A stretch of DNA of 64,000 nt from positions 1,984,001-2,048,000 of the forward strand of contig NZ_CP058559.1 of assembly GCF_014467015.1 (NCBI RefSeq). Reading direction: 5' to 3'. Both the position numbers and the translations under genes were made by a program. Positions 10,984 to 57,599 of the stretch are shown piece by piece. This DNA is from Alkalicella caledoniensis (GTDB lineage: Bacteria > Bacillota > Proteinivoracia > Proteinivoracales > Proteinivoracaceae). Every line of letters begins with the position of its first letter. Positions within the stretch are counted from its first letter, which is position 1. The notes under the pieces were generated by a model. It saw only the letters and a list, made by a program, of their open reading frames with translations, was not told the DNA's origin and did no database searches.

Positions 10984-11265
10984 ATATAGAAATTTACCAT
11001 AAAAAAGACTATGAAGAGAAGAGTAGATATGGGAAGTAATTTTAGCGAGTCGGTGATGGTGAAAGACCGGTATGAAGCCTGTATTGAAGAACATCTCGGA
11101 GTTTCTAATCGAAAGCTTTTGCAAGTAGACTTAGACGGATCCACACCGTTATTAAGTGGACAGTATATGTTTTTACTGTTACGGAGCCGGTCATATATAT
11201 GACAATTAGGGTGGTACCGCGGAGATATAGCCTTCGTCCCTTTATTTAGGGATGAGGGCTTTTTT
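10984..11265 (+). ncRNA. T-box riboswitch of asnS (asparagine)
   Basis: The leader contains the T-box core AGGGTGGTACCGCG at 11208-11221, followed by an intrinsic terminator (AGCCTTCGTCCC paired with GGGATGAGGGCT, then a T run, 11229-11265). The GGTGAAAG loop of stem I is at 11057-11064. The probable specifier is AAC at 11090-11092, followed by ATCTCGGAG; the glnS T-box in this window has CAA in the matching place. Uncharged tRNA-Asn should pair with AAC and with the UGGN bulge, favouring the antiterminator and asnS expression. Confidence 0.93.
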
Positions 11266-30945: not shown

Positions 30946-32316
30946 ATGGAGAGAAAAGATATACTAGGAAATCAGAAGATGTCAAAGCTACTTTGGAATT
31001 TATCCTTGCCTGCTACAATAGCGATGTTTGTCAACGCCCTTTACAATATTGTAGATACCATATTTATAGGAAGAGGAATAGGGTATCTTGGTATAGGGGG
31101 ATTAACCATAGCTTTCCCTGTACAGATGGTTATAATGGCCATAGCTCAAATGATTGGTATAGGAGCGGCATCTGTAATATCGAGGAACTTAGGGGCAAAA
31201 AATGAAGAAAGGGCTTTTCATGTAACAGGAAATGCTTATCTTACCGTTGCGGTACTAGGCTTTCTAATTTGTGCATTTGGATTAATTTTTATTGACCCGC
31301 TACTAAGGGTTTTCGGTGCATCAGCAGTACTTTTCCCTTACGCAAAGGAATATCTTCAAGTTATTCTCGTAGGAAGCATTTACTTCCCATTTGTAGTAAC
31401 ATGTAATAATTTAATTAGAGCAGAGGGTAATGCAAAAGTTGCCATGTTCTCTATGATGATAGGCGCTATTTTAAATATAATCTTAGATTATATTTTTATC
31501 TTCCCACTTGATTTAGGGATAAGAGGAGCGGCACTGGCAACCATTATGTCTCAGTTTGTTTCAATGGTATATGTACTTTCGTACATTTATGGAGGACAAA
31601 GCAAGCTAAGGGTTAAATTACACCACTTGAAACCAGACTTCAAGATAATCTATGAGATTTTAACTGTTGGGTTCCCTTCATTTGCTAGGCAAGTAGCAGG
31701 GAGCATCATTGCCATAATAATAAACAACTCATTAGGTTTTTATGGTGGAGATTTAGCAATATCTGTTTATGGTGTTGTAAATAGAATTATTATGTTCTTG
31801 TTCATGCCACTTTTTGGTATTGTTCAAGGGATGCAACCCATAGTGGGATATAACTATGGTGCGAAAAAATTCCAACGAGTAAAAGAGGTTTTAAAGCTAG
31901 CAGTAATTGCCACAACAGTGTTAGCTACTGTAAGTACACTGTTCGGAGAGCTGTTTCCCCATATAATCATAGGATTATTTGAAGATGATCCACTGTTAAT
32001 CAACAATGGAGTTACCGCCCTGAGAATTGTTATTTCCATGGTACCTATTATAGGTTTACAGATAATAGGGGCAGCATTTTTTCAATCCCTAGGAAAAGCT
32101 ATGCCTTCCCTATTATTGACTTTGTCTAGGCAGGTGCTATTCTTTATTCCTTTAGTTTTAATACTACCAAGGATTAATGGTATGGGTGTAATAGGGGTCT
32201 GGTTATCATTCCCAATAGCTGACGTGCTTTCTACAGTAACTACAGTTGCATTATTGAAAAAAGAGATGAATATAATAAACAAGCAGGAAGAAGCAGAGTT
32301 GAAGCTTGCAAGCTAA
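30946..32316 (+). CDS. MATE-family multidrug efflux transporter
   Basis: A 456-residue, twelve-helix antiporter of the MATE (MepA-like) class, exporting cationic drugs in exchange for Na+ or H+. Visible features: LLWNLSLPATIAMFVNALYNIVDTIFIG in helix 1, the IGIGAASVISRNLGAK loop, NLIRAEGNAK, and FGIVQGMQPIVGYNYGAK after helix 7. I chose ATG 30946; a GTG at 30937 lies in the GGGTGTG ribosome binding site. It forms an operon with marR. A hairpin follows. Confidence 0.92.
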   Translation: MERKDILGNQKMSKLLWNLSLPATIAMFVNALYNIVDTIFIGRGIGYLGIGGLTIAFPVQMVIMAIAQMIGIGAASVISRNLGAKNEERAFHVTGNAYLTVAVLGFLICAFGLIFIDPLLRVFGASAVLFPYAKEYLQVILVGSIYFPFVVTCNNLIRAEGNAKVAMFSMMIGAILNIILDYIFIFPLDLGIRGAALATIMSQFVSMVYVLSYIYGGQSKLRVKLHHLKPDFKIIYEILTVGFPSFARQVAGSIIAIIINNSLGFYGGDLAISVYGVVNRIIMFLFMPLFGIVQGMQPIVGYNYGAKKFQRVKEVLKLAVIATTVLATVSTLFGELFPHIIIGLFEDDPLLINNGVTALRIVISMVPIIGLQIIGAAFFQSLGKAMPSLLLTLSRQVLFFIPLVLILPRINGMGVIGVWLSFPIADVLSTVTTVALLKKEMNIINKQEEAELKLAS

Positions 32317-32320
32317 AATA

Positions 32321-32344
32321 AAAGCCGCACATTTGTGCGGCTTT
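32321..32344 (+). terminator. Hairpin after the MATE gene
   Basis: Perfect 11-bp stem AAAGCCGCACA-tt-TGTGCGGCTTT. Only the stem supplies the T run. Confidence 0.8.
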
Positions 32345-32353
32345 CAAACTGAT

Positions 32354-32737
32354 GACAAAGTCATTTTTTAGGAATGTCGCATATTAAAGCGTCGCTAAAG
32401 CTCCTCTATATGGAACCCTAGGTTCCCTTCGAATATCACCCACCTTAAACCGGCAGGGGTGAACCCCTACAACCCCAAAAACCATAGAGAAAGTCACTCT
32501 ATGGTTTTTTGTACAAAATTCTCCGTCGAGACTTAAGGCTTCTATCTAAACTCCAGAAGGGTACCGCTCCAATTCACCGTCCATGGTTGTAGGGGGTGGT
32601 CTTGTACCACCCTGACTTTCAAAAAGGTCTAGAAGATGGTTTTGCTTGTCAGGGCCCCACAAGGGGACCCCCTACCAGTCTCCTCGAATTAAATGTACTG
32701 CTTTTTAATATACACATCTAGGGTCAATGACTTTGTC
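32354..32737. repeat. Structured non-coding element bounded by inverted repeats
   Basis: The two ends are inverted repeats: GACAAAGTCAT at 32354-32364 and ATGACTTTGTC at 32727-32737, with further matches inward (left ATATTAAAGCG, right, read inward, ATATTAAAAAGC). The roughly 384 bp between are more GC-rich than the surroundings and contain at least five hairpins: GGAACC/GGTTCC (32412-32426), AGGGGT/ACCCCT (32455-32468), AAAAACCATAGAG/CTCTATGGTTTTT (32477-32509), GGGTGGT/ACCACCC (32594-32612), and GGCCCC/GGGGACC (about 32653-32669). No coding frame is present. The right-hand 46 bp recur exactly at 57499-57544. It looks like a MITE-like element or the RNA part of a transposon without its protein gene. 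Confidence 0.6.
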
Positions 32738-32741
32738 TTAG
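32696..32741. repeat. 46-bp repeat, copy 1
   Basis: Right end of the structured element. It begins TACTGCTTTTTAATATACAC, ends CTTTGTCTTAG, and is identical to 57499-57544. It lies 5 bp from the pepT stop codon. Confidence 0.88.
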
Positions 32742-32745
32742 CTTT

Positions 32746-39162: not shown

Positions 39163-39491
39163 AAATATAAAAACTCTCACCTCCAAGACTTTTACAAGCC
39201 TTGGGGACGAGAGCTAAGTTCGCGGTACCACCCCAATTTATCAGCATGTCACCATACTGACCTCTTCGGGTACGTAACTATATACCCTAGCCCTATAACA
39301 GGAGCACCTGTCACATCATCACCTAAAAAGGATCCCTGTGAAGCTCAGAGGCTTGTTTCGAATAGCCATTCCTACTCCTTTTCAGCATAAGGGAGCTCTC
39401 TGTGAAAGAATTTGCTAATCTACTCTTCTCATCATAGCAGTTAGATATTACATAAAAAGCTTTGTATTTCTTTAGTATTAGTTGTTTAATG
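39163..39491 (-). ncRNA. T-box riboswitch of glnS (glutamine)
   Basis: On the minus strand the T-box core GGGGTGGTACCGCG lies at 39221-39234 and is followed by a terminator stem (CTCTCGTCCCCAAG with CTTGGAGGTGAGAG, then T run, about 39165-39212). The likely specifier is CAA at 39353-39355, followed by GCCTCTGAGC, matching the context of AAC in the asnS leader. It should raise glnS expression when tRNA-Gln is uncharged. Confidence 0.92.
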
Positions 39492-57498: not shown

Positions 57499-57544
57499 TA
57501 CTGCTTTTTAATATACACATCTAGGGTCAATGACTTTGTCTTAG
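57499..57544. repeat. 46-bp repeat, copy 2 (solo element end)
   Basis: Identical to 32696-32741, the right end of the structured element at 32.35 kb. Here only this end is present, 5 bp after the topB stop. Confidence 0.88.
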
Positions 57545-57554
57545 TTTGTCTACA

Positions 57555-57599
57555 AGCAGAAAGGATAGCCCTCAAAAAAGGGGCTATCCTTTCTGCTTC
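57555..57599. terminator. Bidirectional terminator
   Basis: AGCAGAAAGGATAGCCC paired with GGGCTATCCTTTCTGCT between convergent topB and the oxidoreductase gene. Confidence 0.92.

Follow-up and report, generated by a model that had tools for sequence, protein, structure and literature searches.

What is the hairpin-rich stretch of 384 bp at 32354-32737 of the window (the whole analysed stretch of 64,000 nucleotides from Alkalicella caledoniensis), and how did it come to lie there? The first-pass annotation had offered a non-autonomous mobile element, a guide-RNA-like remnant of a TnpB-type transposon or an undescribed RNA. Much of its description held. The terminal inverted repeats are real, 12 bp long and 100% complementary (32354-32365 and 32726-32737), though the true element ends lie further out. 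The interior is GC-richer as described (45% versus 36.6% for the whole window), and its longest stop-free run is 53 codons, hence no protein frame. At least five stems had been counted; the stretch does fold stably (z = -4.7 on the + strand and -6.5 on the - strand), but many of the extra stems derive from nested inserts.

We searched for both ends and the interior throughout the genome, a single 3.70-Mb contig (G000). The stretch matched 29 pieces, the best nine with E values from 1e-209 to 1e-81, and its right end was found 28 times with up to three mismatches, against none for the reversed control. Judging by these matches, a gene-less MITE of ~250 bp occurs in about 30 copies scattered over the genome, and the window stretch is one of them. 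Alignment of the copies placed the true ends beyond the annotated repeats, at (T)CAGACTGATGACAAAGTCAT on the left and ATGACTTTGTCTTAGGTTTGTCTACAAGCTG(A) on the right (in short form, CAGACTGATGACAAAG and ...TTTGTCTACAAGCTG(A)). The suggestion of a non-autonomous mobile element was thereby borne out: the copies are many and dispersed, the folded interior is conserved, and the MITE has no transposase of its own. Nor is the interior single-copy or devoid of covariation, given ~30 copies and compensatory change in both of its hairpins.

The element in the window spans 32345-32741, with its true start at ~32345. Its parts, and those of a second locus, are as follows.

32321-32344 (no strand): left copy of the terminator hairpin, AAAGCCGCACATTTGTGCGGCTTT, directly behind the gene ending at 32316; hairpins in the same position are duplicated around other copies.
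32345-32388 (+): left end and adjoining subterminal part of the MITE; the end reads CAAACTGATGACAAAGTCATT here and usually CAGACTGATGACAAAG.
32389-32509 (no strand): block of ~121 bp, missing from the 250-bp copies, that includes a Clostridiales-2-like segment and the hairpin AAAAACCATAGAG..CTCTATGGTTTTT.
32422-32484 (-): the Clostridiales-2-like segment, 36 bits, under the gathering threshold of 58.6.
32510-32588 (-): surviving half of the TwoAYGGAY core, hairpin CC-AUGGAC-GG, from alignment to an intact copy (L081).
32589-32616 (+): REP hairpin 1, GTAGGGGGTGGTCTTGTACCACCCTGAC, the first member of a BIME-like inverted pair nested here.
32648-32675 (-): REP hairpin 2, GTAGGGGGTCCCCTTGTGGGGCCCTGAC, its inverted partner.
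32679-32741 (+): MITE right end; its terminal ~17 bp (GTTTGTCTACAAGCTGA) are missing, as is the hairpin copy on the right.
57499-57598 (+): solo right end (57499-57558), then the terminator hairpin AAGCAGAAAGGATAGCCC..GGGCTATCCTTTCTGCTT; this copy has lost its left part by deletion.

By this layout the window copy is a wreck: REP hairpins and a segment resembling Clostridiales-2 are nested in it, and it is missing the right end along with the terminator copy on that side. The REP pair (32589-32675) takes the place of half of the TwoAYGGAY core, so that one of two hairpins is kept, and only the left terminator hairpin is left of the target duplication. The 3' end of a convergent gene follows directly after the lost right terminus; the CTTTTT at 32742 may be a leftover of the terminator tail. 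Having lost its right end and taken up the REP and Clostridiales-2-like insertions, this copy is probably immobile now. The perfect recurrence of the right 46 bp at 57.5 kb was confirmed (32696-32741 and 57499-57544). That match is, from its arrangement, a deletion remnant and the reverse of the window copy: right end and terminator were kept, and the rest was lost.

Nearly every MITE copy is bordered, directly outside its ends, by one and the same intrinsic terminator hairpin (about 20-35 bp), present whole on both sides as a direct repeat. Whole-hairpin pairs passed a score test in 23 of 32 testable copies of the own genome, and five diverged pairs were recognised by eye. In a sister genus (G003), 23 of 28 copies passed, with target-site duplications (TSDs) of 16-31 bp; none of 400 mispaired flanks did, their maximum score being 13 against real scores mostly of 17-28. 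Re-examination of the G003 targets (n = 22) found A/T-rich hairpin flanks in all 22, versus 41% in the background, and 21 of the 22 lay at most 150 bp from an ORF end, nearly all at most 20 bp. By these features the MITE targets look like intrinsic terminators. A related unit ending in ATGACTTTGTCA (L074 and L075, at 890831 and 1071797 of the own genome) has unrelated-looking flanks and no hairpin duplication, and is possibly a different subfamily.

Full-length relatives with a transposase or TnpB gene had been proposed as a check; no TnpB-type relative was found, but the MITE ends did turn up on autonomous ISs of the IS1182 family. The CAGACTG..GACAAA ends are common to the MITE, to ISs in G001, G003, G048, G341 and G239, and to plasmid ISs. 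The sister genus has fragments of a different IS1182-type element whose ends are those seen on TwoAYGGAY MITEs (CAGACTGTAGACAAA / CAGACTGAAGACAAA), and in G001 the same 32-bp hairpin lies on one pair of contig ends around an IS with MITE-type ends. A wider search returned 11 autonomous IS copies with such ends and 20-35-bp hairpin duplications from at least seven further genera. On named public plasmids, the whole hairpin was duplicated at seven of eight autonomous ISs with CAGACTGTAGACAAA ends (plasmid duplications of 30 bp in NZ_CP082921.1, 22 bp in NZ_LR134109.1 and 21 bp in NZ_KY303941.1). Seven of the transposases scored 386-482 bits against NF033551 (cut-off 270). Both the target and the TSD, a whole hairpin, are the same for the MITE and the autonomous ISs. 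None of the four IS1182 types examined in the own genome carried MITE ends, suggesting that the present mobiliser there is lost or was unseen. A search for IS1182 genes with MITE ends in G042, G119, G128 and G257 also found none; the IS1182 homologs of G128 and G257 were without MITE ends, and no homolog scored above threshold in G042, G119, G359 or G306.

Shared ends, dispersal and whole-hairpin duplication around both the MITE and the autonomous ISs link the two. We consider it very probable that the window stretch is a decayed MITE copy that owed its mobility to a trans-acting DDE transposase of the IS1182 family, from the subgroup whose ends are CAGACTGTAGACAAA / CAGCTTGTTGACAAA; this reading would include cruciform attack, hairpin duplication and insulation. 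We envisage that an IS1182-type transposase, acting in trans, would recognise a terminator cruciform and attack its 5' feet; gap repair would next copy the whole hairpin onto both sides, and the element would come to lie shortly after a gene, with a working terminator on either side. There it would be insulated and nearly harmless, which would allow a high copy number. With a terminator left on both sides of each insertion, it could spread behind genes without breaking them or reading into them, and the long target duplications would make reversal by recombination possible. Loss of the right end of the window copy, and the insertion of REP and Clostridiales-2-like sequences into it, would have come afterwards.

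IS1272 and TnSha1, of the IS1182 family, resemble this system in their transposase family and in their hairpin or terminator targets, which have no sequence consensus (PMC4923244, PMC5678879). IS1272, however, removes the target stem-loop and leaves no duplication (PMC5678879, PMC4923244), whereas the MITE and its IS subgroup duplicate the whole stem-loop, an outcome that the IS1272 authors drew as a hypothetical pathway b (PMC5678879). In several genera, the elements described here offer natural evidence that DDE transposases duplicate whole stem-loops, an outcome that had been no more than a hypothetical pathway in the papers found. Across the literature searched, with subscription papers and ISfinder records lying outside it, neither whole-hairpin duplication by IS1182 elements nor a mobile-element context for TwoAYGGAY was reported. 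What is new, as far as sequence comparison goes, is an IS1182-type MITE that duplicates terminators, together with a mobile-element context for an orphan Rfam family. Since the IS1182 subgroup with these ends occurs on Enterococcus, Bacillaceae and other plasmids, the mechanism is testable with existing elements.

Two other origins for the MITE were weighed. About 13 of its copies in the own genome hold a transposase gene inside, as they would if the MITE were a plain internal-deletion derivative of a 1.9-kb "IS"; this origin is improbable, as the gene is part of another IS, 1.66 kb long, which has ends distinct from those of the MITE (CAGACTGTGTG) and also occurs at seven sites outside it. 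The 1.9-kb unit (499-aa transposase) was likewise rejected as the autonomous partner, its inverted orientations and shared 15-bp boundaries marking a separate nested IS. This 1.66-kb IS1182-family element (499 aa) has 20 near-identical copies in the own genome (e.g., L083-L102), 13 of them in the MITE centre, where it sits at an ACGT palindrome in either orientation with a 4-bp ACGT duplication; it is a hairpin-seeking IS parasitising another IS's MITE. A remnant of a TnpB- or IscB-type (IS605-like) element with an omega-like guide RNA is less likely still. It draws on the linkage of structured noncoding DNA to element ends, but those ends belong to IS1182-family DDE elements, no IS605-type, HEARO or omega-RNA-type Rfam match was found, and the TSD is a whole hairpin. 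Insertion of the IS605 type leaves no TSD.

The interior matched a described family. Three MITE copies of the sister genus scored 45.7, 44.3 and 43.4 bits against the TwoAYGGAY RNA (RF01731; gathering threshold 43), intact copies of the own genome reached up to 42.0 bits, and the window copy gave no match. By these scores the MITE interior is a relative of the orphan TwoAYGGAY rather than an undescribed RNA. The two share a pair of A(N)GGAY-loop hairpins; they differ in that RF01731 was described as an orphan RNA, that the window copy keeps half of it, and that most of the RF01731 loci read here lack IS1182 ends. Of 398 genomes from the phylum, 51 have RF01731. Outside the own and sister genomes 89 of its loci were read, and 14 of these (in G042, G119, G128, G168 and G257) have IS1182 ends on both sides; shuffled windows, as a control, gave 9 single matches in 178. 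Clear whole-hairpin duplications occur at TwoAYGGAY loci in G042, G128 and G257, from unrelated Firmicute families. This places the orphan family in a concrete setting within genomes and makes its origin testable. The idea that all TwoAYGGAY loci are this MITE was rejected, as 69 of the 89 are without IS1182 ends. In other genomes, too, most TwoAYGGAY copies are repeats (roughly 150-390 bp) that lie dispersed and whose flanks are unrelated, suggesting that mobility may be general and the mobiliser may differ. Dispersed TwoAYGGAY repeats without IS1182 ends were seen at L233, at L228/L258/L263/L271, at L231/L277 and at L230/L261; some such repeats have other palindromic ends, e.g., GAGTCACGGGGACGG. 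Different mobilisers may carry one TwoAYGGAY core.

Across 84 loci, pairing in the two A(N)GGAY-loop hairpins is kept via many Watson-Crick switches, and positions next to the loop are 98% paired versus 44% when shuffled; covariation upholds both hairpins in the family and in intact MITE copies. Two roles are candidates for the interior: it may be an RNA that binds CsrA, or a structure in the DNA that transposition makes use of. CsrA binding of TwoAYGGAY was proposed earlier by Gardner and Eldai (PMC4333381), and it is possible. Taken further, the element would chiefly serve to carry a regulatory RNA that acts in trans, with the transcribed double hairpin binding CsrA like CsrB-type sponges and the element's mobility being secondary; the CA(N)GGAYG loops fit the CsrA motif, compensatory changes recur across genera, and Rfam 15 reports extra covarying pairs (PMC11701678). 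We hold this rather unlikely. No promoter-like site above chance was found in the window copy, and read-in is blocked by terminators on both sides. G-U pairs numbered 18 against 14 A-C mismatches, which is no G-U excess, while two T-box leaders of the window, a small control, gave 14 against 3; the two sets differ clearly in G-U share (p 3e-6), whereas G-U:A-C compared directly falls short of significance (p 0.11). The folding-energy strand bias, confounded as strand evidence, is accounted for by composition. Those T-box leaders are ordinary ones, at 11002-11244 (+) and 39200-39444 (-), with 130 and 106 bits; a tRNA control for the pair counts was dropped, as there were too few tRNAs and 21 of 60 extracted stem pairs were "other". 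We tentatively propose, at a little short of an even chance, that TwoAYGGAY is a conserved double hairpin of mobile-element families rather than a host RNA. In one lineage it would ride an IS1182-type system that doubles one terminator, giving a self-insulating insertion, and the hairpin pair may have a part in mobility as DNA, or may serve the element by titrating CsrA.

The REP pair is a passenger. The own genome has 27 REP hairpins like those of the window, and a RAYT-like Y1 transposase gene, scoring 74.4 against NF047646 (slightly under the cut-off of 80), lies among three of them. The unit at 32589-32675, with GTAG-headed inverted hairpins and a RAYT gene beside the same hairpins elsewhere in the genome, is classed as REP/BIME; it resembles known REP/BIME systems with RAYT in its inverted hairpin pair and differs in being a passenger in the MITE, not the element itself. 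The Clostridiales-2-like segments scored 36.0-40.6 bits (E 1e-5 to 1e-7) and did not reach the RF02937 cut-off of 58.6 bits. They were seen in the long MITE subtype, at 32422-32484 (-) in the window and at 829-891 of L021, and this orphan family may also travel on repeats.

Two more IS1182-family elements were observed. An IS of three copies (501 aa; L135, L136 and L137) has REP hairpins as its sites, where it interrupts the CTTGTG loops and is flanked by a 6-bp duplication; one of its copies lies within a MITE copy. Another (five copies, 1698 bp; L185-L189) has 8-9-bp duplications, and three of its copies sit within the loop of a hairpin that resembles a terminator, as in pathway c, whose outcome is loop-only (PMC5678879).
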